Part shown: positions 35,673 to 49,337 of the stretch, one piece after another
Layout of the letters: each line of letters starts with the position of its first letter
Numbering within the stretch: position 1 is the stretch's first letter
From: Crossiella equi
GTDB lineage: Bacteria > Actinomycetota > Actinomycetes > Mycobacteriales > Pseudonocardiaceae
Assembly: GCF_017876755.1 (NCBI RefSeq)
Contig: NZ_JAGIOO010000001.1
Span: 7,487,786-7,551,785, forward strand
Reading direction: 5' to 3'
Length of the DNA: 64,000 nucleotides
Program-made: the position numbers and the translations under genes
Notes under the pieces: generated by a model
What the model was told of the DNA's origin: nothing
What the model saw: only the letters and a program-made list of their open reading frames with translations
The model's database searches: none

Positions 35673-35724
35673 CGCGGGCGATTTTCGCACGGTGCGGTGC
35701 TCCGGGGAGGTGGAATCGACACGC

Positions 35725-35762
35725 TGCAAGAGTCTGCAAGAAATGTTCGCATCTTGCGCAAG
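35725..35762. promoter_or_regulatory. LacI-type operator region of the sugar regulator
   Basis: CTTGCGCAAG (35753-35762) is a perfect palindrome with a central CpG, 19 bases before the regulator start. Two direct TGCAAG copies (35725-35730 and 35735-35740) lie upstream. The core TTGCGCAA recurs in front of the GH87 gene (42438-42445). Confidence 0.55.
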
Positions 35763-35781
35763 TTTGCGTCATCATTGCCGC

Positions 35782-36792
35782 ATGACTCGACGACTCGCCG
35801 AGGTGGCGCGCAAGGTCGGGGTGAGTGAGGCGACGGTCAGCCGGGTGCTCAACGGCAAACCCGGTGTCTCGGAGTCCACCCGCAACGCCGTGCTCACCGC
35901 CCTCGACGTGCTCGGCTACGAGCGCCCGACCCAGCTGCGCGGGGAACGCGCCCGGCTGGTCGGGCTCGTGCTGCCCGAGCTGCAGAACCCGATCTTCCCC
36001 GCGTTCGCCGAGATCATGGGCAACGCGCTGGCGCAACAGGGCTTCACCCCCGTGCTGTGCACCCGCACCGCCGGGGGTGTCAGCGAGGCCGACTACGTCG
36101 AGCTGCTGCTGGCCCAGCACGTCTCCGGGGTGCTCTTCGCCGGGGGCTCCTACGCCCAGGCCGACGCCTCGCACGAGCACTACCGGCGCCTGGTCGAGCG
36201 GCAGCTGCCGACCGTGCTGGTCAACGCCGGTATCGACGAGCTCGGCTTTCCCCGCGTCTCCTGCGACGACGCGGTGGCCGCCGAGCAGGCCCTGACCCAC
36301 CTGCTCTCCCTCGGGCACACCAAGGTCGGCATGGTGCTCGGCCCGCCCGACCACCTGCCGTCCCGGCGCAAGCTCGCCGCCTTCACCGCCTCGGCGACGA
36401 AGGCCGGGCTGGAGGTGCCCGCCGAGTGGGTCGGGCACGCCATGTTCTCCCTGGAGGGCGGGCAGGCCGCGGCCGCGCGGCTGATCGAGCGCGGCGTCAC
36501 CGGCATCGTCTGCGCCTCCGATCCCCTGGCCCTGGGCACCGTCCGCGCGGTGCGCCGCAAGGGCATGGCCGTGCCCGCCGACGTCTCGGTCATCGGCTAC
36601 GACGACTCCGCGTTCATGAACTGCACCGACCCGCCCCTGACCACCATCCGCCAGCCCATCGAGGCCATGGGCCGGGCCGCGGTGGACCTGCTCGCCGCCC
36701 AGATCAACGGCGCCGAGGTCGCCTCCGAGGAGCTGCTGTTCGAGCCGGAGCTCGTGGTGCGGGGGTCCACCGCACCCGCTCCAGAGAAGTGA
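35782..36792 (+). CDS. LacI-family sugar repressor
   Basis: Repressor of 336 aa. The HTH and hinge are RLAEVARKVGVSEATVSRVL and NGKPGVSESTR, followed by a periplasmic-binding-like sensor domain (LVGLVLPELQNPIFPAF to the end). It directly precedes a carbohydrate ABC importer and alpha-glucosidase on the same strand, so it most likely represses them until an alpha-glucoside binds. A palindromic site just upstream suggests autoregulation. Confidence 0.88.
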   Translation: MTRRLAEVARKVGVSEATVSRVLNGKPGVSESTRNAVLTALDVLGYERPTQLRGERARLVGLVLPELQNPIFPAFAEIMGNALAQQGFTPVLCTRTAGGVSEADYVELLLAQHVSGVLFAGGSYAQADASHEHYRRLVERQLPTVLVNAGIDELGFPRVSCDDAVAAEQALTHLLSLGHTKVGMVLGPPDHLPSRRKLAAFTASATKAGLEVPAEWVGHAMFSLEGGQAAAARLIERGVTGIVCASDPLALGTVRAVRRKGMAVPADVSVIGYDDSAFMNCTDPPLTTIRQPIEAMGRAAVDLLAAQINGAEVASEELLFEPELVVRGSTAPAPEK

Positions 36793-36854
36793 GCCGCACT
36801 CACCCAGGTTCATAACGAGATTTCGTCAACTTCTTGCTGAATCTCATCGGGATA

Positions 36855-36884
36855 TTGCGCTCCGGTGGGCCGGGCTCCTATCGT
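36855..36884 (+). promoter_or_regulatory. Promoter of the sugar importer operon
   Basis: TTGCGC (36855-36860) and TATCGT (36879-36884) are 18 bases apart. The -35 and next bases read TTGCGCTC, half of the TTGCGCAA operator core, so repressor binding here could block RNA polymerase. Confidence 0.5.
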
Positions 36885-36939
36885 GAGCCGCGCCACAGGT
36901 CCCGCCGGAGTGACCCCCCATCGAGAAGAGGCACGAGTG

Positions 36940-38301
36940 ATGACCAGACCTCGTACCCGCAGCACCCTCGGGCTCCTGCTCGTCGCCGGACTCGGCCTCG
37001 CCCTGGCCGGGTGCGGTGGCGACGCGGCGCCCCGGGCAGGCGGCAAGGTCAAGATCTCCATCAACGGCCAGCCGCCCGGCACCCAGGCCTTCGAGCGGAA
37101 GATCTTCGACGAGGACGTCGCCGCGTTCGAGGCGGCCAACCCGGGCATCGACATCGAGCCGCACGAAGGCTTCATGGACCCGAAGACCTTCTCCGCCAAG
37201 CTGTCCGGCGGCCAGCTCGAGGACGTCTTCTACGTCTACTTCACCGACCCGGCGCAGATCATCGCGCGCCGCCAGGCCGCGGACATCACCGACCACCTCA
37301 AGGACGTGCCGCTGGCCGGTGAGCTGAACCCGCAGCTCACCGCGGTGTTCAAGAACGCCCAGGGCCGCCAGTTCGGCCTGCCCACCGCCAACTACTCGAT
37401 GGGCCTGCTCTACAACCGCACGCTGTTCACCAAGGCGGGCCTGGACCCGGACAAGCCTCCGGCCACCTGGTCCGAGGTGCGCGAGGCGGCCAAGAAGATC
37501 AGCGCGCTGGGCGGCGGCACCGTCGGCTTCGGCGAGCTGAGCAAGAACAACCAGGGCGGCTGGCACCTGACCAGCTGGCTGAACTCCATGGGCGCCAACG
37601 TCGCGCGCAAGGACGGCGAGACCTGGAAGGCCGACTTCAACAACGACAAGGGCAAGGCCGCCTTGCAGGCGCTGCGCGACATGCGCTGGACCGACGACTC
37701 CATGGGCAGCAAGCAGCTGCTGGAGATCCCGGACCTGCAGCAGCTGATGGGCGCGGGCCAGCTCGGCATGTACATCGCCGCCCCGGACAACGTGCCCACG
37801 CTGGTCAACCAGTTCAAGGGCAAGTACGAGGACTACGGCCTGGCCCCGATGCCGGGCGGGCAGGGCACGCTGATCGGCGGCGAGGGCTACATGTTCAACC
37901 CCAAGGCCTCCCCGGAGAAGATCAAGGCGGGTCTGACCTGGCTGCGCTGGAAGTACCTCGACCCGACGCGCACCGAGGCCAACCTCAAGCGCTACGCCGA
38001 GCAGAAGCAGCCCATCGGCCTGCCGGTGCCCCCGGCCGCGGACGTCTGGGTCGGCCCGGTCCGCGAGCAGCAGGAGAAGTTCAAGGCCGCCAACGCGACG
38101 ATTCCAGTGGGCAACTACCAGCCCTACATCAACGCCGCCCCCAGTCTCAAGGGCAACCTGGAGCCGCCGAACGCCCAGCAGGTCTACGCCGCGCTGGACA
38201 CGGTGATGCAGGGCGTGCTGACCAACAAGGACGCCAACCTCGACCAGCTGCTGGCCGACGCGGAGTCGAAGGTCAACGGTGTTCTTGCACAGGTCCGGTG
38301 A
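36940..38301 (+). CDS. ABC transporter sugar-binding lipoprotein
   Basis: Extracytoplasmic solute-binding lipoprotein of 453 aa (family 1, MalE/AglE-like). Lipobox LALAGC with Cys25 as the lipid site. The mature protein has the cluster-B features GQPPGTQAFERKIF, DPAQIIARRQAADIT and YSMGLLYNRTLF. AGAGG lies just upstream of ATG 36940. It would capture an oligosaccharide, probably an alpha-glucoside given its neighbours, and deliver it to the two permeases that follow. Confidence 0.88.
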   Translation: MTRPRTRSTLGLLLVAGLGLALAGCGGDAAPRAGGKVKISINGQPPGTQAFERKIFDEDVAAFEAANPGIDIEPHEGFMDPKTFSAKLSGGQLEDVFYVYFTDPAQIIARRQAADITDHLKDVPLAGELNPQLTAVFKNAQGRQFGLPTANYSMGLLYNRTLFTKAGLDPDKPPATWSEVREAAKKISALGGGTVGFGELSKNNQGGWHLTSWLNSMGANVARKDGETWKADFNNDKGKAALQALRDMRWTDDSMGSKQLLEIPDLQQLMGAGQLGMYIAAPDNVPTLVNQFKGKYEDYGLAPMPGGQGTLIGGEGYMFNPKASPEKIKAGLTWLRWKYLDPTRTEANLKRYAEQKQPIGLPVPPAADVWVGPVREQQEKFKAANATIPVGNYQPYINAAPSLKGNLEPPNAQQVYAALDTVMQGVLTNKDANLDQLLADAESKVNGVLAQVR

Positions 38302-38302
38302 C

Positions 38303-39202
38303 GTGGCGCGCGCGGCGGCCCCGGCCCCGAGCCGGTTCCGCCGCGCGCTCTCCGAGCACCTCACCGCGTACGGGCTGCTCGCCGGGGCGCTCGTGGTCTT
38401 CGCGCTGTTCTCCTGGTGGCCCATCGTGCGGGGCGTGCTGCTGAGCTTCCAGCAGGTCGACTTCGTCAACGCCCCCACCTGGGTCGGTCTCGAGAACTTC
38501 GAGCGCCTGTTCGCCGACCCGCTCTTCGGCGTGGCCTGGCGCAACACCCTGCTGTTCACCGGGCTCGCGCTCGTGCTCGGCTTCGCGGTGCCGTTCCTGA
38601 CCGCTGTGGTGCTCAACGAGCTGCGGCACGCGCGCTCGTTCTTCCGCGTCGCGGTGTACCTGCCGGTGATGCTGCCGCCAGTGGTGACCGCGCTGCTGTG
38701 GAAGTGGTTCTACAACCCCGGTCCCGGCCTGTTCAACGAGGCGCTGCGCGCGGCCGGGCTGCCCGAGCTGGCCTGGCTGGACTCCTCGGCGACCTCGATG
38801 CTGTCGCTGGTGCTGGTGTCCACCTGGGCCAACATGGGCGCCACCACGCTGATCTACCTGGCCGCGCTGCAGACCATCCCGGGCGAGCTGTACGAGGCCG
38901 CCGAGCTGGACGGGGCCACGCTGTGGCAGCGGCTGCGGCACGTGACCATCCCGCAGACCCGGTTCGTGCTGCTCGTGCTGCTGCTGTTGCAGGTGGTGGC
39001 CACCATGCAGGTCTTCACCGAACCATACGTGATGACCGGCGGCGGCCCCGAGGACAGCACCGTCACCGTGCTGCTGCTGCTCTACCGCTACGCCTTCGTC
39101 TACAACGACTTCGGCACGGCCAGCGCGCTGAGCCTGCTGCTGTTCGTGGTGCTCGGCATCTTCTCCGGCGCGTACGCGCGGCTGACCAGGACCAGGAGCT
39201 GA
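38303..39202 (+). CDS. Sugar ABC transporter permease (MalF-like)
   Basis: Inner-membrane permease of about 299 aa with six helices. The EAA loop, which contacts the ATPase, reads YEAAELDGATLWQRLRHVTIP. GTG 38303 starts one base after the binding-protein stop; an alternative GTG at 38279 overlaps it. Together with the next gene it forms the channel. No dedicated ATPase gene lies here, so a shared MsiK-type ATPase encoded elsewhere is expected, as in other actinomycetes. Confidence 0.88.
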   Translation: MARAAAPAPSRFRRALSEHLTAYGLLAGALVVFALFSWWPIVRGVLLSFQQVDFVNAPTWVGLENFERLFADPLFGVAWRNTLLFTGLALVLGFAVPFLTAVVLNELRHARSFFRVAVYLPVMLPPVVTALLWKWFYNPGPGLFNEALRAAGLPELAWLDSSATSMLSLVLVSTWANMGATTLIYLAALQTIPGELYEAAELDGATLWQRLRHVTIPQTRFVLLVLLLLQVVATMQVFTEPYVMTGGGPEDSTVTVLLLLYRYAFVYNDFGTASALSLLLFVVLGIFSGAYARLTRTRS

Positions 39203-39203
39203 C

Positions 39204-40079
39204 ATGTCCACGCGCACCCTGGTCTCCCCGGCCGCACTGCGGTCCAGGCGGGGCAAGGCCGTCTACTGGCTGGTGTTCACCCTGGTGTTCCTGGCCTTCG
39301 TGCTCGCGTTCGTCTTCCCGCTGTACTGGGCGGTGACCGGCGCGATGAAGTCCCCGGTGGAGCTGGCCCGCACGCCGCCCTCGCTGGTGCCGGAGACCTG
39401 GTACCCGGAGACGTTCGTGCAGGCCTGGGAGCAGCTGGACCTCGGCCGGTACTTCCTCAACACGGTCGTGGTGGCCGGGGGCGCGCTCGCGGTGCAGCTG
39501 CTGGTGTGCGTGCCCGCCGCGTTCGCGCTGTCCAAGCTGCGGCCCGTGCTGGGCAACGTGGTGCTCGGGCTGATGCTCGTCACGCTGATGCTGCCCGCCT
39601 CCGCGCTGCTCGTGCCCACGTACATGACCGTGGTGGACGTGCCGCTGATCGGGGTGAACCTGCTGAACAACCCCGCCGCGATCTGGCTGCCCGCCGCCGC
39701 GAACGCCTTCAACGTCTACCTGCTCAAGCGGTTCTTCGACGAGATCCCCAACGAGCTGCTGGAGGCCGCGCGCATGGACGGGGCCGGGCCGGTGCGCGTG
39801 CTGTGGAGCATCGTGCTGCCGATCTCCCGGCCCATCCTGGCCGTGGTGTCCATCCTGGCGCTCGTGGCGGCCTGGAAGGACTTCATCTGGCCGCTGCTGG
39901 TCTTCTCCGACACCGGCGCGCAGACGCTGAGCGTCATGCTCGAACGCGTCCGGGAGAACACACCTCTCAACGTGCTCAACGCGGGACTGGTGCTCGCCAG
40001 CCTCCCGATGGTCGTGCTGTTCCTGATCTTCCAACGCCAGATCCTGGCCGGTCTCACCGCCGGCAGCCTCAAGGGCTAA
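39204..40079 (+). CDS. Sugar ABC transporter permease (MalG-like)
   Basis: Second permease, 291 aa, six helices. EAA loop: LLEAARMDGAGPVRVLWSIVLP. ATG 39204 begins one base after the previous stop. It pairs with the upstream MalF-like subunit. Both EAA loops are intact, so docking of a shared ATPase is possible. Confidence 0.9.
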   Translation: MSTRTLVSPAALRSRRGKAVYWLVFTLVFLAFVLAFVFPLYWAVTGAMKSPVELARTPPSLVPETWYPETFVQAWEQLDLGRYFLNTVVVAGGALAVQLLVCVPAAFALSKLRPVLGNVVLGLMLVTLMLPASALLVPTYMTVVDVPLIGVNLLNNPAAIWLPAAANAFNVYLLKRFFDEIPNELLEAARMDGAGPVRVLWSIVLPISRPILAVVSILALVAAWKDFIWPLLVFSDTGAQTLSVMLERVRENTPLNVLNAGLVLASLPMVVLFLIFQRQILAGLTAGSLKG

Positions 40080-40102
40080 GCCCGTACCTGGAAGGCGGCA
40101 AC

Positions 40103-41755
40103 GTGATCTCCTCCGAGCGCACCTCTGTCTCTCCGTCCACTGTGGATGATCCGGCGCGGACGTCCTGGTGGCGCGGTGCGGCGATCTACCAGGTCTACCT
40201 GCGCAGCTTCGCCGACAGCGACGGGGACGGCATCGGCGACCTGCGCGGCGCGCTGGCGCGGCTGCCCTACCTGGCCGAGCTGGGCGTCGACGCGATCTGG
40301 TTCTGCCCCTGGTACCCCTCGCCGATGGCCGACGGCGGCTACGACGTCTCCGACTACCGCGGCATCGAGCCGGTGTTCGGCACGCTCGCCGACGCGGAGG
40401 AGTTCATCACGCAGGCGCACCGGCTGGGCATCCGCATCATCATCGACATCGTGCCCAACCACTGCTCCTCGCTCCACCCGTGGTTCCAGGAGGCACTCGC
40501 GGCGCCGCCCGGTTCACCCGCCCGGGCGAAGTTCTGGTTCGCCGAGGGCCGGGGCGCGGACGGTGCCGAACCGCCGAATGACTGGCAGTCCAGGTTCGGC
40601 GGGCCCGCGTGGACCCGCGTCCCGGACGGCCAGTGGTACCTGCACCTGTACGCACCCGAGCAGCCCGACTTGAACTGGACCAACCCGGAGGTGCACGCTG
40701 AGTTCGAGGACGTGCTGCGGTTCTGGTTCGACCGCGGGGTGGACGGCTTCCGCATCGACGTCGCCGACGGGCTGGTGAAGGCGGACGGGCTGCCGGACAC
40801 CCACGGGGCCACCGAACGGCTGCCGTACTCCGATGTGGACGGTGTGCACGAGATCTACCGCGTGTGGCGGCGGATCGCGCAGGAGTACGGCGAGGACCGC
40901 ATCTTCGTGGGCGAGATGTGGCTGCCGGACCCGGTGCGCTTCGCGCGGTACCTGCGGCCGGACGAGCTCCACTCGGCCTTCAACTTCGACTTCCTGTCCT
41001 GCCCGTGGGAAGCCGGGGCGCTGAAGTCCGTCATCCAGTCCACAGTGGACAACCACGCGCCGGTGGGGGCGCCGCCCACCTGGGTGCTGTCCAACCACGA
41101 CGTCACCCGCCACGTCACCCGGTACGGCCGCGCGGGCGACACCGGCTTCACCTTCGCCGACCGCCGCCACGGCACGCCGGTCGACCGTGCCCTGGGCACG
41201 CGCCGGGCCAGGGCGGCGGCGTTGCTGACACTGTCCCTGCCGGGCGGGGTGTACGTGTACCAGGGCGAGGAACTGGGCCTGTGGGAGATCGAGGACATCC
41301 CGGACGAGCTGCGCCAGGACCCGGTCTTCCCGCGCACCCGGGGCGCCGACCCGGGCCGCGACGGCTGCCGCGTCCCGCTGCCCTGGTCCGGCACCGCGGC
41401 CCCGTTCGGCTTCGGCCCGACCGGCTCGACCCCGTGGCTGCCCCAGCCCGCGGAGTGGACCGCCTACACAGCCGACTCGCAGAAGGACGACCCGTCCTCG
41501 ATGCACACCCTCTACCGCGAGGCCCTCCACCTGCGCCGAGGCCTGCCCGCCCTGGGCGACGGCCCGATGCGCTGGCTGGACCTGGGGGCCGAGGTCGTGG
41601 CGTACCACCGGCCGCCGGGCTTCACGTTCGTGCTGAACCTGTCGGGGGCCCCGGTGCCGTTGCCCGCGCACGAGCGGGTGTTGCTGGCCAGTGGCGAGGT
41701 GGTGGACGGCGAGCTGCCGCCGGACACCGCGGTGTGGCTCGCGACGGAGAGCTGA
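40103..41755 (+). CDS. GH13 alpha-glucosidase
   Basis: Cytosolic alpha-glucosidase/oligo-glucosidase of 550 aa in GH13. Catalytic triad: Asp219 (GFRIDVADG), Glu271 (FVGEMWLP) and Asp333 (LSNHDVTRH). WWRGAAIYQVYLRSFADSDGDGIGDLRG-type start and WFCPWYPSPMADGGYDVSDY are typical of the actinobacterial AglA/oligo-1,6-glucosidase group. No signal peptide. GGAAGG (40091-40096) selects GTG 40103, 24 bases after the permease stop, so it is in the same operon. It would hydrolyse imported alpha-linked oligosaccharides to glucose. Confidence 0.9.
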   Translation: MISSERTSVSPSTVDDPARTSWWRGAAIYQVYLRSFADSDGDGIGDLRGALARLPYLAELGVDAIWFCPWYPSPMADGGYDVSDYRGIEPVFGTLADAEEFITQAHRLGIRIIIDIVPNHCSSLHPWFQEALAAPPGSPARAKFWFAEGRGADGAEPPNDWQSRFGGPAWTRVPDGQWYLHLYAPEQPDLNWTNPEVHAEFEDVLRFWFDRGVDGFRIDVADGLVKADGLPDTHGATERLPYSDVDGVHEIYRVWRRIAQEYGEDRIFVGEMWLPDPVRFARYLRPDELHSAFNFDFLSCPWEAGALKSVIQSTVDNHAPVGAPPTWVLSNHDVTRHVTRYGRAGDTGFTFADRRHGTPVDRALGTRRARAAALLTLSLPGGVYVYQGEELGLWEIEDIPDELRQDPVFPRTRGADPGRDGCRVPLPWSGTAAPFGFGPTGSTPWLPQPAEWTAYTADSQKDDPSSMHTLYREALHLRRGLPALGDGPMRWLDLGAEVVAYHRPPGFTFVLNLSGAPVPLPAHERVLLASGEVVDGELPPDTAVWLATES

Positions 41756-41760
41756 CCCAT

Positions 41761-41801
41761 CCCGCCCGGGACGCGTGCGCCGGGCTCGCGTCCCGGGCGG
41801 G
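41761..41801. terminator. Bidirectional terminator
   Basis: CCCGCCCGGGACGCG (41761-41775) pairs perfectly with CGCGTCCCGGGCGGG (41787-41801), a 15-bp stem with an 11-base loop between the convergent alpha-glucosidase and Cys-rich-protein genes. Confidence 0.7.
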
Positions 41802-41806
41802 GGTTG

Positions 41807-42307
41807 TCAGCCTGCGATGGCGATGACCATCAGGTCCGGGTTCATGGTGCGTTCGACTTCCAGGTGGACCGCGCACCAGCGGCGGTTCTCGCCCGTGGTG
41901 GGGTGGGTCACCAGGGCTGTGGCCGGGGTTGGGCAGTGGCGGCGCCAGCCTTCGCCTCGCCAGGGGCAGGTGTCGCGGCGGCCGGTGCAGCGGTGGCCCT
42001 GGCCTCGGAAGGCTCGGCGGACCAGGGGGTCGTGGACCGGGCAGATCGCCGACTGGGACTCGCAGATGCGGGGGTCGTGGGCCAGTGCCGCGTCGCGGTC
42101 CCGGTCCGCTTGGTAGCGGAGTGCTGTGCGGACTTGGCGTTCGTCCGGAAGCAAGAGGTGCACGTCTGTTCTTGCCACTCCGTGGGCGACCAGCAGTTCG
42201 CTGATGCGCCACAGCACGTCCCTGGCCGGGTCGTGGCGGCCGCTGCCCGCCGTCACCGGGAACGGGGTCCAGACCGGCACCGGGTGGTAGTGCTCGACGT
42301 GGTCCAT
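41807..42307 (-). CDS. Cys/His-rich protein of unknown function
   Basis: Protein of 166 aa from ATG 42307; longer frames cross operator-like repeats. I recognise no family. The N-terminal half is helical with VLWRISELLVAHGVARTDVHLL; the C-terminal half has six Cys and several His (RICES, AICPVH, RCTG, TCPW, HCPT, WCAVH), a pattern suggesting one or two zinc sites. It is divergent from the secreted GH87 gene, with four half-sites of a likely sugar-repressor operator between, so the two may be co-regulated. Confidence 0.5.
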   Translation of the reverse strand: MDHVEHYHPVPVWTPFPVTAGSGRHDPARDVLWRISELLVAHGVARTDVHLLLPDERQVRTALRYQADRDRDAALAHDPRICESQSAICPVHDPLVRRAFRGQGHRCTGRRDTCPWRGEGWRRHCPTPATALVTHPTTGENRRWCAVHLEVERTMNPDLMVIAIAG

Positions 42308-42354
42308 GCCAGGGGTTACGGGCGCCGGGGCGGGGTGGTTCAGGTCGGTTGTGT

Positions 42355-42445
42355 GCAAGCCGCTTGCGTTCGGGGCGGCAAGGGGCTTGCGGTCAGGTAC
42401 CGGTGGATAGGGCTCGGCAACCTCAACTGTGCAAGTTTTGCGCAA
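42355..42445. promoter_or_regulatory. Operator cluster upstream of the GH87 gene
   Basis: GCAAG-CCG-CTTGC (42355-42367) and GCAAG-GGG-CTTGC (42378-42390) are two palindromes 23 bases apart, and TTGCGCAA (42438-42445) is identical to the core at 35754-35761 before the LacI gene. CTTGCG half-sites recur at 42363 and 42386. This ties the secreted glucanase to the sugar-import regulator. Confidence 0.5.
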
Positions 42446-42561
42446 TTCCGTTGAAGTATTGCGGTCATCTGGTCGAAACATCTACCTTGCTCGGCACGCA
42501 CCGGTCCACCGGGATCGCCGCCGCCAACGGCCTGACCGAGATCAACATCGAGGTGCGCCCT

Positions 42562-44805
42562 GTGAGTACGTCTTCCCCGTCCGCCTGGGGGCGGTTCGTT
42601 CCACCGCTTGCGCTAGTGGCCTCGGCCGTCTGTGCCGCCGGGTCCGTTCTGGTCGTCGGGGCGGCCGGGGCCGGGTCCGCCGCCGCGGCGGTCGCCGAGA
42701 TTCCCGCTGGGTACGGGGCTTCCGTGCCGTTCACCACCTACGAAGCCGAGGCCGCCGCCACCAATGGTGGGGCTGTCGGGCCCGACCACACGCAGGGGAC
42801 CGTCGCCTCGGAGGCTTCCGGGCGGCGGGCCGTGCGGCTCCAGGCCGGGCAGTACGTCGAGTTCACGCTCGCGCGGGCCGCCAATGCCGTGGTCGTCTCG
42901 CACAACCTCGGCTCACGCGGGCAGAGCGGCACGCTGTCGGTCTACGTCAACGGCGCCAAGCTGCCCGGCAAGCTCGCCCTGACCTCGCGCTTCAGCTACC
43001 TCGACACGCCCTGGATCCCCGGGGCCCGCACGCACCAGCTGTTCAACCACGCCCGGCTGCTGCTCGGCCGCCAGGTGGGCGCCGGGGACAAGATGCGGCT
43101 GCAGGTCGACGGCGGGGACATCCCGGCCGTGGTCGACCTCGCCGACTTCGAGCAGGTCGCCGGGCCCGCCGGGCAGGCCGCCAACTCGGTGTCGATCACC
43201 TCGACCGGGGCCGACCCCAGCGGCGGCGGGGACTCCACCGCGGCCATCAACCGGGCCATCGCCGAGGCGCGCGGGTCCGGGCGGTCGGTGTGGATCCCCA
43301 GCGGGGACTTCCGGATCACCGGGAAGCTGGAGATCGACGGGGTCACCGTGCGCGGGGCCGGGCCGTGGCACGCCACGCTGCGCGGCACCCACATGATGGA
43401 CAACGGCAGCACCGGCGGGGCCGTGCAGCTGCGGGACTTCGCGCTGCTCGGCGAGGTCGCCGAACGTGTGGACGACCGGCCGGACAACTTCGTCAACGGC
43501 AGCCTCGGCAACGGCAGCGTGGTGTCCAACGTCTGGATCCAGAACCAGAAGGTCGGGCTCTGGCTGGTCGGGCCGAACAACAACAACCTGACCATCGAGA
43601 ACAGCCGCTTCCTCGACCTCAAGGCCGACGGGCTCAACTTCAACGGCACCGTGACGAACTCCGTGGTGCGGAACAACTTCCTGCGCAACACCGGGGACGA
43701 CGCGCTGGCCATGTGGTCGATCCACTCGGCCAACCGGGGCAACACGTTCACCGGCAACACCATCGTGCAGCCCAACCTGGCCAACGGCATCGCGATCTAC
43801 GGCGGCGTCGACACCACGGTCAGCCGCAACGCCGTCGTGGACACCAACGCGCTGGGCAGCGGCATCGCCATCTCCAACCAGGAGTTCATCCCGGGCAAGA
43901 ACTTCACGCCGCTGGGCGGGACGATCGCCGTGCGGGACAACGTGTTGCTGCGCACCGGGGCCATGAACCCCAACTGGAACCACCCGATGAGCGCGCTGCG
44001 CATCGACGCCTACGACCACCCGGTCGAGGGCGGGGTGCGGGTCGATTTGACGGGGAACCAGTTCCTGGACAATCCTTGGAGTGCGATCCAGACCGTGAGC
44101 GGTGGCGGGAAGGGTCTGCCGGTCAGCAGCGTCTACGTCGACGGTGCCACCGTGCGCGGGGCGCGCACCGTGGTGGTGCAGGCCGAGACGCGTGGTGGGC
44201 TGCACGCGAGCAATGTCAACGCCAGCGGGGTGGGCCGCGCCGGTGTCTACAACTGCCCCTACCCGGACGGCAGCTTCACGCTGCACGCCGGTGCGGGCAA
44301 CAACGGCTGGCAGAACAACCTGTGGCAGGGCTGCGCCTGGCCCGAGCCAGGCAACGGCGGTGACCCGACCACGCCGCCGCCGGGTGGTGCCAACCTGGCC
44401 CTGGGCAGGCCGGTGACCACCAGCGGGCACGTGTACGACCTCGCCGGTGCCCGTGCGGTCGACGGCAACGCCGACACCTACTGGGAGAGCGTCAACCACG
44501 CCTTCCCGCAGGAGATCACCGTCGACCTGGGGGAGACCCGGCAGGTCGGGCGGGTGCAGCTCGCGCTGCCGCCGCGGCAGGCGTGGGGCGCGCGCACGCA
44601 GACCGCGGTGATCCTGGGCAGTGTCAACGGTTCCGGCTACAGCGAGCTGGTGGGCTCGCGCGTTTACACCCTCGACCCGGCTTCGGGCAACACCGCGGAG
44701 GTCGGGTTCGGGGTCACCGGGGTGCGGTACCTGAGGGTGCGCGTCACCGGCAACACCGGTTGGCCTGCGGCACAACTGGGTGAGCTGAGGGTGTTCGGCG
44801 CCTGA
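42562..44805 (+). CDS. Secreted GH87-type alpha-1,3-glucanase / mycodextranase
   Basis: Exported enzyme of 747 aa: a long signal peptide (about 1-45), a CBM35/6-like beta-sandwich (about 55-210), a right-handed beta-helix catalytic domain (about 215-600), a Gly/Pro/Thr linker and a C-terminal F5/8-type (discoidin) binding module (about 613-747). Asp356 (KADGLNF), Asp379 and Asp380 (NTGDDALAM) are spaced +23/+24, exactly as I recall for the catalytic Asp triad of characterised GH87 enzymes. It would cut alpha-1,3 links of fungal alpha-glucan, mutan or nigeran. GAGG before GTG 42562 sets the start; GTG 42553 is possible. Confidence 0.72.
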   Translation: MSTSSPSAWGRFVPPLALVASAVCAAGSVLVVGAAGAGSAAAAVAEIPAGYGASVPFTTYEAEAAATNGGAVGPDHTQGTVASEASGRRAVRLQAGQYVEFTLARAANAVVVSHNLGSRGQSGTLSVYVNGAKLPGKLALTSRFSYLDTPWIPGARTHQLFNHARLLLGRQVGAGDKMRLQVDGGDIPAVVDLADFEQVAGPAGQAANSVSITSTGADPSGGGDSTAAINRAIAEARGSGRSVWIPSGDFRITGKLEIDGVTVRGAGPWHATLRGTHMMDNGSTGGAVQLRDFALLGEVAERVDDRPDNFVNGSLGNGSVVSNVWIQNQKVGLWLVGPNNNNLTIENSRFLDLKADGLNFNGTVTNSVVRNNFLRNTGDDALAMWSIHSANRGNTFTGNTIVQPNLANGIAIYGGVDTTVSRNAVVDTNALGSGIAISNQEFIPGKNFTPLGGTIAVRDNVLLRTGAMNPNWNHPMSALRIDAYDHPVEGGVRVDLTGNQFLDNPWSAIQTVSGGGKGLPVSSVYVDGATVRGARTVVVQAETRGGLHASNVNASGVGRAGVYNCPYPDGSFTLHAGAGNNGWQNNLWQGCAWPEPGNGGDPTTPPPGGANLALGRPVTTSGHVYDLAGARAVDGNADTYWESVNHAFPQEITVDLGETRQVGRVQLALPPRQAWGARTQTAVILGSVNGSGYSELVGSRVYTLDPASGNTAEVGFGVTGVRYLRVRVTGNTGWPAAQLGELRVFGA

Positions 44806-44941: not shown

Positions 44942-46072
44942 ATGCCACGTCGATCAAGGCTGGGCGCTGCCCTGCTGCTGAGCTGTACGGTCGCCGCCGC
45001 GCTCGCCCCGGCCGCGGCGGCCGAACCCGAGCTGTCCCCAGGACTGCTGCCCGCCATGCGGCAGGACCTGGGGCTCAGCGAAGCCCAGGCCCGGGTCCTG
45101 CTGCGGCAGGAAACCGCGGCCAGCCGAGCCGTGCCAGCCGCCCAGGCCGCGGCCGGCGCGGACTTCGGCGGCACCTGGTTCGACCCCGCGCGCGGCAAGC
45201 TCGTCGTCGCGGTCACCGGCGAGGCCACCGAGGCCGCGGTGCGGGCCACCGGGGCCGAGACCGTGCGGGTCACGCACTCCTCGGCCACCCTGGACCGGGC
45301 CAAGGACGCCATCGACGCCCTGGCCACCGCCGAGAAGGCACCGGCCGAGGTCGCCAGCTGGCACGTCGACCCCAAGGCGAACTCGGTCGTGGTCAACGTG
45401 GTCGAGGGCGGCGACAGTCCCGCGTTGCGGGCGTTCCTGGCCAAGGCACGGACCACCGGACCGGTCAGCGTGCGCACCGAGGGCGTGCGCAGGCCCCAGA
45501 CCTTCGCCGCGGGCACCGTCGGTGGCGACCCGTACTACACCGGGAACGTGCGCTGCTCCATCGGGTTCTCCGTGCACGGCGGGTTCGTCACCGCGGGTCA
45601 CTGCGGAGGCGGCGGCGCGGCCGCGTACGGCTGGGACCGGTCGTTCATGGGCAACTTCGCCGGATCCTCCTTCCCGGGCAACGACTACGCGTTCGTACGC
45701 ACCGGCGGCGGCTGGTGGACGGTGCCGGTCGTGCTGGGCTGGGGCGCGGTCAGCGACGTGCTGGTGCGCGGCTCCTGGCAGGCCCCGGTCGGCACCTCGG
45801 TGTGCCGCTCCGGCTCCACCACGCGCTGGCACTGCGGGCACGTCCAGTCCCACAACGAGACCATCAACTACGCCCAGGGCGCGGTGCACCAGATGAGCGG
45901 CACCAGCGTGTGCGCCGAGGGCGGTGACTCCGGCGGCTCCTTCGTCACCGGCGACCAGGCCCAGGGCGTCACCTCGGGTGGTTACGGCGACTGCCGCGGC
46001 GGCGGGCGCACGTGGTTCCAGCCGGTCAACGAGATCCTGTCGGTGTACGGGCTGACCCTGCACACCGCCTAG
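44942..46072 (+). CDS. Secreted S1-family serine protease with pro-region
   Basis: Preproprotein of 376 aa: signal peptide (to about residue 27), a pro-region of about 160 aa with two alpha-lytic-type folding repeats, and a chymotrypsin-like domain. Catalytic triad: His220 (VTAGHCG), Asp248 (GNDYAFV) and Ser330 (GGDSGGS). Cys pairs fit streptogrisin-type disulfides. AAGGAGAA precedes ATG 44942. An IS481-type element is inserted directly at the stop codon; the target duplication restores TAG, so the protein is unchanged but the original downstream region is displaced by about 1.1 kb. Confidence 0.88.
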   Translation: MPRRSRLGAALLLSCTVAAALAPAAAAEPELSPGLLPAMRQDLGLSEAQARVLLRQETAASRAVPAAQAAAGADFGGTWFDPARGKLVVAVTGEATEAAVRATGAETVRVTHSSATLDRAKDAIDALATAEKAPAEVASWHVDPKANSVVVNVVEGGDSPALRAFLAKARTTGPVSVRTEGVRRPQTFAAGTVGGDPYYTGNVRCSIGFSVHGGFVTAGHCGGGGAAAYGWDRSFMGNFAGSSFPGNDYAFVRTGGGWWTVPVVLGWGAVSDVLVRGSWQAPVGTSVCRSGSTTRWHCGHVQSHNETINYAQGAVHQMSGTSVCAEGGDSGGSFVTGDQAQGVTSGGYGDCRGGGRTWFQPVNEILSVYGLTLHTA

Positions 46073-46073: not shown

Positions 46074-47156
46074 TGTACTGACTCGTGACGTTGTTGAGAC
46101 TCACCCGGCCAGGACGCTGATCGGTGGGTGGCCTGCCAGGGCTGAGTGGGCGCGTTGGGTGTTGTAGCGATCCACCCAGCCCGGCAGTGCCGCCACCCGC
46201 TCGTCGTTGGAGGTCCAGGCCCTCGCGTAGGCGAACTCGGTCTGCAACGTCCGGTTGAACCGCTCGGCCTTGCCGTTGGTCCAGGGACACCCCGGTTTGA
46301 TGAAGCGCCGCCGGATCCCCAGGGCGGTGCAGACCGCCTGCCAGTCCCGGTCCACTCGGTAGGCCTTGGCGTTGTCGGTCAGCACCCGCAACACGGTCAC
46401 CCCGTGTTCCCGGAACCAGCAAGCGGCCCTGTGCAGGAAACCCGCGCAGGTCAGACCCTTCTCATCCGGCAACGCCTCGACATAGGCCAGGCGGGAACGG
46501 TCATCGACAGCCACGTGCAGGTAGTCCCAGCCATTGCCCCGGCCACGGACGGCCTCGCTGCGACCGTGCACGCGCCAGCCACCACCATCAGGGATCCGGC
46601 CGAGCTTCTTGACATCGACATGCAGCAGGTCACCGGGGTGCGGGCGCTGGTAGCGGATCCCGGTGTGGCGGCGGCGCACCGGCAGCCCGGTGACGGCGTC
46701 CAGGTGGGCGAGTGCGGGCACGTGGTGTCGGCGCAGGATCCGGCCGACGGTGGCCGCGGCCAGCCCGAGCAGTCCGGCCAGGTGCACCGCGCCCCGGCGG
46801 TGCTCGGTCCGGGCGGCCAGAACCGCCGTCTCGAGCTCGGCGGGGGTGCGGGTGGGGCTGGTGTGGGGGCGGGAGGAGCGGTCGGCCAGGCCCGCTTCAC
46901 CCTCGGTGCGGTAGCGGTGGATCCATTTGTGCACGGTGGTGCGGGAGATGCCGAGTTGTTCGGCGATGCGGGCCGGTGGCCACCCGGCCTGGTAGCGGGT
47001 GTTGATGAGCTGGCGTGCGTGGATGGTGGTGCGGGCGTTACGGTGCATGTGAGGACCTTCTGGTGCGCGGTGGTTGCGTAGAGAACATCCACTTCGCCTG
47101 AAGGTCCTCCCTGCTTTCAAGGCGACACGCCCGCAACAACGTCATGAGTTACTACA
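46074..47156. mobile_element. IS481-family insertion sequence
   Basis: A complete 1083-bp element. The ends are 23-bp imperfect inverted repeats with three mismatches: the left end reads TGTACTGACTC then gTGACGTTGTTG, and the right end, on the opposite strand, TGTAGTAACTC then aTGACGTTGTTG. It is flanked by a 6-bp direct repeat, CCTAGC. It carries one intact transposase gene on the minus strand. Intact ends, repeat and gene point to a recent and possibly active insertion. Confidence 0.85.
46101..47048 (-). CDS. IS481-family transposase
   Basis: Transposase of 315 aa. An N-terminal HTH (GWPPARIAEQLGISRTTVHKWIHRY) is followed by a second HTH-like region and a DDE/rve integrase core: HVDVKKLGRIPDGGG carries the first Asp, VLTDNAKAYR the second, and WTNGKAERFNRTLQTE the Glu. 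YNTQRAHSALAGHPP closes it. ATG 47048 is the family start. All three catalytic acids are present and the frame is unbroken. Confidence 0.92.
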   Translation of the reverse strand: MHRNARTTIHARQLINTRYQAGWPPARIAEQLGISRTTVHKWIHRYRTEGEAGLADRSSRPHTSPTRTPAELETAVLAARTEHRRGAVHLAGLLGLAAATVGRILRRHHVPALAHLDAVTGLPVRRRHTGIRYQRPHPGDLLHVDVKKLGRIPDGGGWRVHGRSEAVRGRGNGWDYLHVAVDDRSRLAYVEALPDEKGLTCAGFLHRAACWFREHGVTVLRVLTDNAKAYRVDRDWQAVCTALGIRRRFIKPGCPWTNGKAERFNRTLQTEFAYARAWTSNDERVAALPGWVDRYNTQRAHSALAGHPPISVLAG

Positions 47157-47368: not shown

Positions 47369-48559
47369 ATGATCTCTCGTCGCCTCTTCCTCGGCGCCAC
47401 GGCGACGGCGCTGGCCACCCCTGCCCTCGGCCAGCTCACCGCCGGTTCGGCGCTCGCCGCGACGCCGCAGAGATTCACCCTGAACCTCGTGAACAACTCC
47501 GGTTCCGGCACGGCCTACGCCTACGTGGTGGGTCTGTCGGACAACCGGCCGCTGTTCGTCCGCCGGGACGGCAGCTCCTACTACCCGCCGAGCCCGGGTG
47601 CGCCGGTCACGCCGCTGGGCGAGGACCCGTCGATCCCGCTGGGCGGTCCCGGTTCGACCACCTCGGTGCAGATCCCACGCATGTACGGGGCGCGGATCTA
47701 CGTGGTCACCGACAGCAAGATGAGCTTCTTCGTCAACCCGGGCCCGCACGTGGTGCACCCGAGCTTCGTCAACCCCGCTGACGCGAACATCAACAAGAAC
47801 TGGACGTTCGCGGAGTTCACGTTCAACGAGGCGGAGCTGTTCGCCAACATCAGCTACGTGGACTTCGTGGGCGCGCCGCTGGGCCTGTCGCTGCGGTCGC
47901 TGTCCGGCCGCACGGAGACCGTGCCCGGCCTGCCCGCCGGAGCCCTGGACGGGGTGTGCTCGGCGTTGCAGGCCCAGGCCAGCAAGGAGGGCTCGGCCTG
48001 GAACCAGCTGATCCAGAAGGGTCCGGACGGCCGGAACCTGCGGGCGATGAGCGCGCACTACAAGGCGGGCTCGTTCTCCAACTACCTGGCCGGGTACATC
48101 GACCAGTGCTGGTCGAAGTACCAGGGCACCGACCTGGTCGTGGACACGCAGGCGGGCTTCGGCCGGTTGACCGGACGGGTCAGCGGCGGGGTGCTGCGCT
48201 TCAACAACGGCGAGACCTTCGCCAAGCCCTCCACCGCGGACGTGCTCAGCTGCGACTCCGGGCCGTTCAGCCTGGCCGGGGCGAGCGAGGTGCGCAAGGC
48301 GATCATCCCGCGCCTGGCCGCCGCGCTGAACCGGACCACGCTGCTGTCCAACCCCAACCAGCCGCACGGCGAGGTGGCGGGCAACTTCTACAAGAACGCG
48401 GCCACCAACCACTACGCGCGCATCGTGCACGAGCGGCTGCCGGACAACCGGGGCTACGCCTTCCCCTACGACGACGTCTCGCCCGGACCGGACTACAGCG
48501 GTGCCGTGCGCTCGGGCGACCCGGGCACGCTCACCGTGGACGTCAAGCGCCTACGGTGA
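47369..48559 (+). CDS. Secreted GH64 beta-1,3-glucanase
   Basis: Exported thaumatin-fold glucanase of 396 aa. The N-terminus MISRRLFLGATATALATPAL has a twin-Arg followed by a hydrophobic core, so export is probably by Tat. Catalytic residues Glu149 (WTFAEF) and Asp165 (SYVDFVG) are 16 apart, the same spacing as Glu154/Asp170 of the Streptomyces matensis laminaripentaose-producing enzyme (from memory). It would release laminaripentaose from beta-1,3-glucan of fungal walls. GGAGGAA (47357-47363) precedes ATG 47369. The 3' end overlaps the convergent GntR gene by nine bases. Confidence 0.88.
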   Translation: MISRRLFLGATATALATPALGQLTAGSALAATPQRFTLNLVNNSGSGTAYAYVVGLSDNRPLFVRRDGSSYYPPSPGAPVTPLGEDPSIPLGGPGSTTSVQIPRMYGARIYVVTDSKMSFFVNPGPHVVHPSFVNPADANINKNWTFAEFTFNEAELFANISYVDFVGAPLGLSLRSLSGRTETVPGLPAGALDGVCSALQAQASKEGSAWNQLIQKGPDGRNLRAMSAHYKAGSFSNYLAGYIDQCWSKYQGTDLVVDTQAGFGRLTGRVSGGVLRFNNGETFAKPSTADVLSCDSGPFSLAGASEVRKAIIPRLAAALNRTTLLSNPNQPHGEVAGNFYKNAATNHYARIVHERLPDNRGYAFPYDDVSPGPDYSGAVRSGDPGTLTVDVKRLR

Positions 48560-49264
48560 CTCGCCCGGGGTGAACGTCAGCCGCGAGACGATGCGGTAGC
48601 GGTCGCCCCGGTAGACCGAGTGCGTGTACTCCACGCGGCGGCCCCCGGTGTCGGTGGTCAGGCGCTCGAACAGCAGCGCCGGGGACAGCGGGGGCACGCC
48701 GAGGAGCGCGGACTCGGTCGCGTCGGTGACGGTGGGTTCAATGGTCTGGTCGGCCTGGGACACGTGGATGTCCCGGTCGGCCAGCACCGCGTAGAAGCCG
48801 CGCGCCTCGAAGTCCCGTGTGGACAGTCCGGGGGCGAGCGCGGCCGGGATGTGCAGGTGCTCCAACGCGATCGGCTCGCCGTCGGCCAGACGCAGCCGCA
48901 GCACGTAGGTGACCTCGGTGCCGGGGGACAGGCCGAGCTTGCGGCCCAGGCGTGCGCCCGCGGGAATCGTGGACAGCTCCAGCACCTTGCTGCCCCAGCG
49001 ACCGCCCGCGCGCGGTGCGCCCACCGGGCCGTCGCCGACCAGCTCCTGCGTGACCTTGGCCTTGGCCACGAACATGCCGCGACCGTGCTCGCGCACCAGG
49101 AGCCCGGTGTGCACGAGCTCGTCCACGGCGGCGCGCAGCGTGGGGCGGGAGACGTCCAGGCGGGCGCAGAGGGTGCGCTCGGACGGGATCGCGGTGCCCG
49201 GCGGCAGGGTCTCGACCAGCTCCAGCAGGTGGTCGCGCACGCGCTGGCGCTTGAGCGCCGTCAT
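48551..49264 (-). CDS. GntR-family regulator, HutC/DasR type
   Basis: Regulator of 237 aa. The winged HTH (LPPGTAIPSERTLCARLDVSRPTLRAAVDELV) is followed by a UTRA-like sensor domain (ARLGRKLGLSPGTEVTYVLRLRLADGEPIALEHLHIP). The sensor resembles DasR/NagR, which bind amino-sugar phosphates, though the ligand here is unknown. ATG 49264 lies 13 bases from a DasR-like palindrome, so the gene is probably self-controlled. It is divergent from a secreted glucanase gene, its likely target. Confidence 0.85.
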   Translation of the reverse strand: MTALKRQRVRDHLLELVETLPPGTAIPSERTLCARLDVSRPTLRAAVDELVHTGLLVREHGRGMFVAKAKVTQELVGDGPVGAPRAGGRWGSKVLELSTIPAGARLGRKLGLSPGTEVTYVLRLRLADGEPIALEHLHIPAALAPGLSTRDFEARGFYAVLADRDIHVSQADQTIEPTVTDATESALLGVPPLSPALLFERLTTDTGGRRVEYTHSVYRGDRYRIVSRLTFTPGESP

Positions 49265-49276
49265 GCCACTCCCTTC

Positions 49277-49292
49277 ACTGGTATTGACCAGT
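49277..49292. promoter_or_regulatory. DasR-like operator
   Basis: ACTGGTATTGACCAGT has perfect 6-bp arms around ATTG and matches the form of the DasR responsive element (ACTGGTCTAGACCAGT). It overlaps the start region of the GntR gene. Confidence 0.6.
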
Positions 49293-49337
49293 TGAGCAGG
49301 TCTCGCAAGCGATTGTCCAGTAACTGTCACGTTGTTG

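Follow-up and report, generated by a model that had tools for sequence, protein, structure and literature searches.

A predicted alpha-1,3-glucan utilisation locus with a GH87 enzyme and a MalR-type regulator in Crossiella equi

The actinomycete Crossiella equi carries, within the 64,000-nucleotide stretch of chromosome analysed here (the window), a six-gene locus that we interpret as a utilisation system of actinobacterial MalR type for alpha-1,3-glucan, be it mutan, fungal wall alpha-glucan or nigeran; we put the probability of this reading at roughly 85%. Genes for a LacI-family regulator, a sugar-binding protein, two permeases, a GH13 enzyme and a GH87 enzyme follow each other on the plus strand at positions 35782-44805 of the window, which sits in a 9.44-Mb one-contig genome, and all six lie where a first-pass annotation of this DNA had placed them. 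That annotation had proposed an alpha-1,3-glucan locus, and the proposal is supported by the GH87 profile, by synteny, by a repeat shared among promoters and by co-occurrence across genomes; the activity, the transported sugar and the inducer named below are predictions.

Alpha-1,3-glucan occurs as a polymer in fungal walls and as a component of dental plaque (PMC12394665, PMC11475409), and information on its enzymatic degradation is described as limited (PMC11475409; all papers are cited from the portions of their text that were available). From the locus, a regulator for the use of this polymer can be predicted, along with a precisely defined candidate operator, an importer and an enzyme acting inside the cell. 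Synteny, the shared repeat and the co-occurrence of regulator, binding protein and GH87 all suggest that the system is dedicated to the substrate of GH87. In our reading, this is a MalR-type system that has been turned to alpha-1,3-glucan and is widespread within the class.

The GH87 enzyme and the genes before it

By its sequence, the secreted-type enzyme of the locus is a member of GH87, so that the profile comparison, which the first-pass annotation had set as a refuting test, came out in favour of its proposal. It matched the profile CatAgl_D1 at 2.7e-30 (105.9 bits, cut-off 27, profile positions 2-159 of 159) and CatAgl_D2 at 4e-24 (85.6 bits, cut-off 27, positions 6-257 of 389, the final third of D2 being unmatched). 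The closest solved structure, 7c7d (E 2.1e-200), covers residues 16-599 and is followed by 5zru and 6k0m; it represents the alpha-1,3-glucanase (mutanase) of Streptomyces thermodiastaticus HF3-3 (PMC11475409) and has the same catalytic unit, with the discoidin domain of the window protein lying outside the matched part. The structure 5zru, matched at E 2.9e-48, is that of Agl-KA from Bacillus circulans, a distant relative with a galactose-binding-like plus beta-helix unit and the same aspartate spacing (PMC6814745). The triad put forward in the first-pass annotation, Asp356 with Asp379 and Asp380 at +23 and +24, is exact when counted from the GTG start at 42562, and in the 5zru alignment these residues correspond to Asp1067, Asp1090 and Asp1091 of Agl-KA, the essential aspartates at +0, +23 and +24. 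Alanine mutants of the Agl-KA triad had no activity at 30 min and 0.09-3.12% at 18 h (PMC6814745). The N-terminal module that had been taken for one resembling a carbohydrate-binding module is CatAgl_D1, which is part of the GH87 catalytic unit and not an accessory module; the discoidin module proposed for the C-terminus was recovered by Pfam as an F5/8 type C domain and resembles those of glucanases/chitosanases among the PDB matches. A hydrophobic, signal peptide-like N-terminus, judged by eye, suggests that the enzyme is secreted.

The five genes before GH87 form a block. Its importer is of MalEFG kind, with a binding lipoprotein and two permeases recognised by Pfam and by inspection of the N-terminus, and had been called complete; binding protein, permeases and GH13 abut, leaving no space for an ATP-binding gene at 36940-41755, and an ATPase gene is accordingly missing from the operon. 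MsiK is a shared ATPase encoded elsewhere; abstracts name it together with Streptomyces importers. The regulator combines a LacI helix-turn-helix with a sugar-binding core (Pfam) and reached no NCBIfam equivalog cut-off, the best being RbsR with 200.4 of 382 bits. In the GH13 protein, which matched the GH13 profile, an Asp/Glu/Asp set, the candidate catalytic residues in this family, was located at Asp219, Glu271 and Asp333.

A possible but considerably less probable explanation, which overlaps the alpha-1,3-glucan reading, is broad alpha-glucan scavenging, in which a mycodextranase or mixed-linkage GH87 would feed both alpha-1,3 and alpha-1,4 oligosaccharides to a promiscuous importer and GH13 enzyme. 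The best GH13 match, a general alpha-glucosidase, is consistent with this, as are the discoidin domain of glucanase/chitosanase type and the fact that a mutanase and a mycodextranase, both from Streptomyces, are named side by side (PMC11475409). Against it stands the nearest solved GH87 structure, 7c7d, which is an alpha-1,3-glucanase.

Gene order and co-occurrence with GH87

The order lacI, binding protein, two permeases and GH13, together with GH87, was complete in 12 of the 37 GH87 loci compared (L034-L070); at a thirteenth (L055), which ends at a contig edge, the second permease, GH13 and GH87 are visible. Starting from LacI, a GH87 match over at least half of the query was present in the fetched stretch of 29 of the 80 named LacI loci, and these belong to Crossiella, Umezawaea, Lentzea, Amycolatopsis, Streptomyces, Kitasatospora, Planotetraspora and Microbispora. 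Other LacI loci contain the five-gene block with GH87 not nearby, and some Streptomyces, e.g., S. griseus, have the LacI gene but no block within the sequence fetched. Where blocks lacked a nearby GH87, no family beyond the block was common to more than three of the 19 loci compared, which include the second locus of the window genome described below (L237). In six loci (L038, L039, L040, L046, L053 and L054), GH87 genes stand in tandem next to a single block and are of two subtypes, with 51-54% and 42-46% identity to the enzyme of the window. In Crossiella sp. SN42 (L132, G086:C19) the block is kept, but of the neighbouring GH87 only a C-terminal piece of 126 residues was matched.

Presence of the regulator tracks that of GH87 across the class. 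GH87 was scored with the D1 profile PF22815 for the class and for Streptomyces and with the window protein at E <= 1e-50 for the family; LacI was scored at E <= 1e-130 for the class, and paired searches were taken to cover the same genomes, as the handles shown agree. Throughout, the genomes share ancestry, so the counts are not independent. LacI matches with 65-100% identity occurred in 57 of 345 class genomes and GH87 in 45, with 44 genomes containing both, 13 LacI only and one (G481) GH87 only; for 34 of these 44 genomes, the distance between a GH87 gene and a LacI match is no more than 12 kb. Among 150 Streptomyces genomes, LacI and GH87 were each found in 87, together in 85 and each alone in two, leaving 61 with neither (phi 0.95). 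The binding protein, present in 86 of them, accompanied GH87 in 85, with one genome having the binding protein only and two GH87 only (phi 0.96). The control family GH64 (127 of 150) gave a weaker, though not zero, association, with phi 0.43 for GH87 (p 1.5e-07) and 0.39 for LacI (p 3e-06). This within-genus result is the strongest part of the co-occurrence evidence. Among 200 genomes of the window's own family, the binding protein was found in 56 and GH87 in 57, both in 53, the former alone in three and the latter alone in four.

A repeat shared by three promoters, and the LacI paralogues

The promoters of lacI, the binding protein gene and GH87 share a 21-bp direct repeat, TTGC-N17-TTGC, the TTGC core of which is common to all three. 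Four copies occur on both strands of the window, at 35754, 36834, 42438 and, inside the GH13 gene, 41660, versus 0.69 expected, and none of 100 shuffles reached four. The aligned Crossiella promoters retain the TTGC half-sites, and in relatives a spacing of 21 is the commonest for TTGC pairs in each of the three upstream classes. The repeat was found upstream of 74 of 104 lacI genes, 45 of 69 binding protein genes and, from 11 genomes, 12 of 26 GH87 genes in loci without the block, a group that includes L055, whose short contig shows GH13 and the second permease gene. Elsewhere it was rare: 0/75 and 0/73 upstream of the first and second permease genes, 1/85 upstream of GH13 and 45/4000 in random stretches. 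Upstream stretches shorter than 200 bases, rows whose last 120 bases duplicated another row, LacI below 65% and binding proteins below 39% identity were left out of these counts, which are not independent since related promoters share ancestry. Other TTGC spacings are also frequent upstream of lacI (20 in 63, 11 in 56, 32 in 51 and 9 in 47 of the 104), so lacI has an array rather than a single repeat. We propose LacI as the binder of the 21-bp repeat, presumably acting as a repressor.

This count supersedes a first operator statistic, which scored TTGCG pairs within 30 bp, included the approximately 50% identical LacI paralogues described below and gave 100/116 for lacI, 35/72 for the binding protein gene, 8/48 for GH87 near the block and 10/25 for GH87 away from it, with a background of 115/4000 random stretches and 15/990 regions upstream of other predicted open reading frames. 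The binding protein promoter of the window has no TTGCG pair because its first half-site reads TTGCT.

The operator core named in the first-pass annotation was the palindrome TTGCGCAA. Its placement before lacI and GH87 is correct, and the copies at 35754 and 42438 are the only two in 64 kb; as a shared operator it was rejected. With 0.49 copies expected and at least two in 10 of 100 shuffles, its count in the window is not significant, and among five aligned Crossiella loci it occurs at lacI in the window only, the site reading TTGCGCTC in the four others, where the 21-bp repeat is kept. At GH87, TTGCGCAA is kept in all four aligned loci, window included. Chance adjacency of the six genes, with no functional link between them, would accord with the weak statistics of TTGCGCAA alone and with the separation of block and GH87 in many relatives, and is extremely improbable in view of the synteny over genera and families, the co-occurrence and the conserved repeat.

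CTTGCAG, the MalR half-site (PMC5526262), occurs four times in the window, a total not above chance (6.74 expected). Two of the copies lie upstream of lacI, for which reason we call the protein MalR-type, and none lies upstream of the binding protein gene or GH87. These two boxes, a gene content like that of Streptomyces MalR systems and an alpha-glucosidase-like GH13 would also fit an ordinary maltose/maltodextrin operon (malR-malEFG-maltase), with GH87 a mere neighbour or an added member of the maltose regulon. We regard this as improbable: the block tracks GH87 in 150 Streptomyces at the phi values given above, for which the control family was GH64 and not a starch-use gene, and the same 21-bp repeat precedes 12 of the 26 GH87 genes that are unlinked to the block. 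A further argument comes from LacI paralogues of approximately 50% identity (L217-L223), which stand beside another GH13 gene in six of seven loci. They coexist with block-type LacI and binding protein in five genomes (G030, G088, G142, G158 and G171), and the repeat is found in 0 of 16 regions upstream of these paralogues and of the GH13 genes of L217-L223. In the LacI tree they branch apart, the deciding node being weakly supported; the block LacI proteins form one side of a branch with support of only 48/82, so their single origin is not firm.

In the Crossiella genome, LacI matches at a stringency of 1e-50 or better were three only, with 100, 54 and 43% identity, and the 54% protein groups with the block and not with the approximately 50% paralogues. 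It is encoded at a second locus (L237, G000:C1:8323000-8342500) beside a GH13 gene of 62% identity with one TAG inside the match, both on long branches. The region upstream of this GH13 contains the 21-bp repeat and two TTGCGCAA. The pair (G000:C1:8333038) was considered as a canonical mal locus and rejected, as its LacI and GH13 branch beside the block and the GH13 upstream region has the repeat; in the GH13 tree, L237 and three Virgisporangium/Cellulomonas proteins encoded beside block-type LacI fall with the block. L237 has the appearance of a diverged copy that may be controlled by the same regulator.

Several observations weigh against a system dedicated to alpha-1,3-glucan. As this genome yielded no separate MalR of the approximately 50% clade, a finding that also favours the maltose operon, the locus could serve maltose as well. 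The GH13 protein is closest to general alpha-glucosidases, and nothing in its sequence shows an alpha-1,3 preference. The GH87 family includes mycodextranases, that of Streptomyces among them, so the assignment to an exact polymer is provisional. LacI occurs without GH87 in 13 class and two Streptomyces genomes and GH87 without LacI in one and two, respectively, and four genomes of one genus, g46 (L056, L057, L058 and L061), which are the clearest exceptions to the partnership, have GH87 while neither LacI nor the binding protein passed the thresholds applied. Finally, the repeat is found upstream of only 8 of 47 block-adjacent GH87 genes and is absent from 14 of the 26 unlinked ones, including both other GH87 genes of the window genome. 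Many of the block-adjacent GH87 genes directly follow GH13 in the same orientation, and these may be co-transcribed with it. The g46 GH87 proteins are 56-57% identical to that of the window, and two carry a TGA inside the match.

Proposed mechanism, known systems and features around the locus

In the mechanism that we propose for alpha-1,3-glucan use, LacI would bind the 21-bp TTGC repeat at its own, the importer and the GH87 promoters when substrate is absent and repress them. Basal secreted GH87 would cut alpha-1,3-glucan outside the cell into short nigero-oligosaccharides, which the lipoprotein and two permeases would import, powered by an ATPase encoded elsewhere. Inside, GH13 would hydrolyse the nigero-oligosaccharides to glucose. 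LacI would be released by one of these sugars, an oligosaccharide. Beyond the single locus, we lean towards the view that one conserved MalR-type repressor with its 21-bp repeat is the standard control of GH87 in Actinomycetes, that it acts on unlinked GH87 genes in trans, derives from a maltose system and senses fungal or streptococcal alpha-1,3-glucan.

The first-pass annotation called such a dedicated system little described, which holds for the actinobacterial version with GH13 and MalR and not for the idea as such, since a similar system has already been put forward for the Firmicute Lachnoclostridium phytofermentans. There, a cluster of GH87, the GH65 nigerose phosphorylase Cphy1874, the GH31_u1 enzyme Cphy_1877, an ATP-binding cassette (ABC) transporter and a LacI regulator was proposed for nigerose use (PMC9061262). 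In both clusters, a GH87 endo-enzyme stands together with LacI, an ABC importer and enzymes that would process nigero-oligosaccharides inside the cell. The window locus is nonetheless not of the same kind, as GH13 replaces GH65/GH31_u1, although the two may function alike. The available text of PMC9061262 contains no operator or regulon analysis.

MalR-type maltose systems of Streptomyces and Actinoplanes (malR-malEFG; AcrC, AmlR) have a LacI-family regulator beside malEFG or a maltase (PMC5526262, PMC6828939). Their CTTGCAG half-sites are arranged as direct or inverted repeats, and two such half-sites also precede the window lacI. Unlike in those systems, TTGC-N17-TTGC is the commonest arrangement here, the secreted enzyme is a GH87 and presence of the block tracks GH87. 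Growth of Streptomyces on mutan has been reported in a paper whose enzyme table lists GH87 and whose available main text mentions neither LacI nor 'ABC transporter' (PMC11475409). Within a literature search directed mainly at papers outside subscription, PMC9061262 alone contained both 'GH87' and 'LacI', and the titles and abstract beginnings listed gave no description of an actinobacterial GH13/MalR/21-bp-repeat system with GH87. The dedicated system is thus not new as an idea; the actinobacterial version, with its GH13, MalR-type regulator, 21-bp repeat and near-constant GH87 partnership, was not found in print within this search.

The locus would exemplify the redirection of a maltose-type module to a different linkage and is a candidate marker for alpha-1,3-glucan feeding. 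Its interest is moderate as a single locus and greater as a class-wide regulon. Since 85 of the 87 GH87-bearing genomes in the Streptomyces sample also have LacI, and 85 also the binding protein, induction is testable in ordinary Streptomyces laboratory strains.

Table 1. Features of the Crossiella equi locus (positions in the window)
Feature	Position	Strand	Evidence
Two CTTGCAG boxes (MalR half-site), 10 bp apart, upstream of lacI	35724..35740	-	Motif search
Putative operator, lacI promoter, TTGC-N17-TTGC, also containing the TTGCGCAA palindrome	35754..35778	+	Motif count, Crossiella alignment
LacI-family, MalR-type regulator (presumed repressor)	35782..36792	+	Pfam LacI 1.4e-14, Peripla_BP_3 9.1e-37
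Putative operator, importer promoter, TTGC-N17-TTGC	36834..36858	+	Kept in 5 aligned Crossiella loci; seen in other families
Sugar-binding lipoprotein, ABC importer	36940..38301	+	Pfam SBP_bac_1 1.5e-27; lipobox-like LAGC at N-terminus
Permease 1, MalF/UgpA-like	38279..39202	+	Pfam BPD_transp_1 2.6e-18; NCBIfam GlcT, UgpA, MalF below cut-off
Permease 2, MalG/UgpE-like	39204..40079	+	Pfam BPD_transp_1 5.1e-18; NCBIfam UgpE, MalG below cut-off
GH13 alpha-glucosidase, presumed cytosolic	40103..41755	+	Pfam Alpha-amylase 1.4e-97; PDB 8yif 9.6e-155, 8yie 1.7e-152
Open reading frame between GH13 and GH87	41807-42481	-	No Pfam match at E <= 0.001; 64-66% identity in sister Crossiella
Putative operator, GH87 promoter, TTGC-N17-TTGC plus conserved TTGCGCAA	42438..42462	+	Motif count, Crossiella alignment
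GH87 enzyme, GTG start; signal peptide-like start, D1, beta-helix D2, discoidin	42562..44805	+	Pfam; PDB 7c7d, 5zru, 6k0m; Asp triad

Downstream of GH87 lie genes for an alpha-lytic-type protease (44945-46072), a GH64 beta-1,3-glucanase (47369-48559) and a GntR/UTRA regulator (48551-49330). Protease, GH64 and GntR genes also stand beside GH87 in other Crossiella (L034-L036), and the region might represent a fungal-wall lysis island. Between the protease and GH64 genes of the window, an IS481-like transposase (rve, HTH and LZ_Tnp_IS481 matches) is encoded on the minus strand at 46101-47120; as protease and GH64 are adjacent in L034-L036, it looks like a strain-specific insertion.

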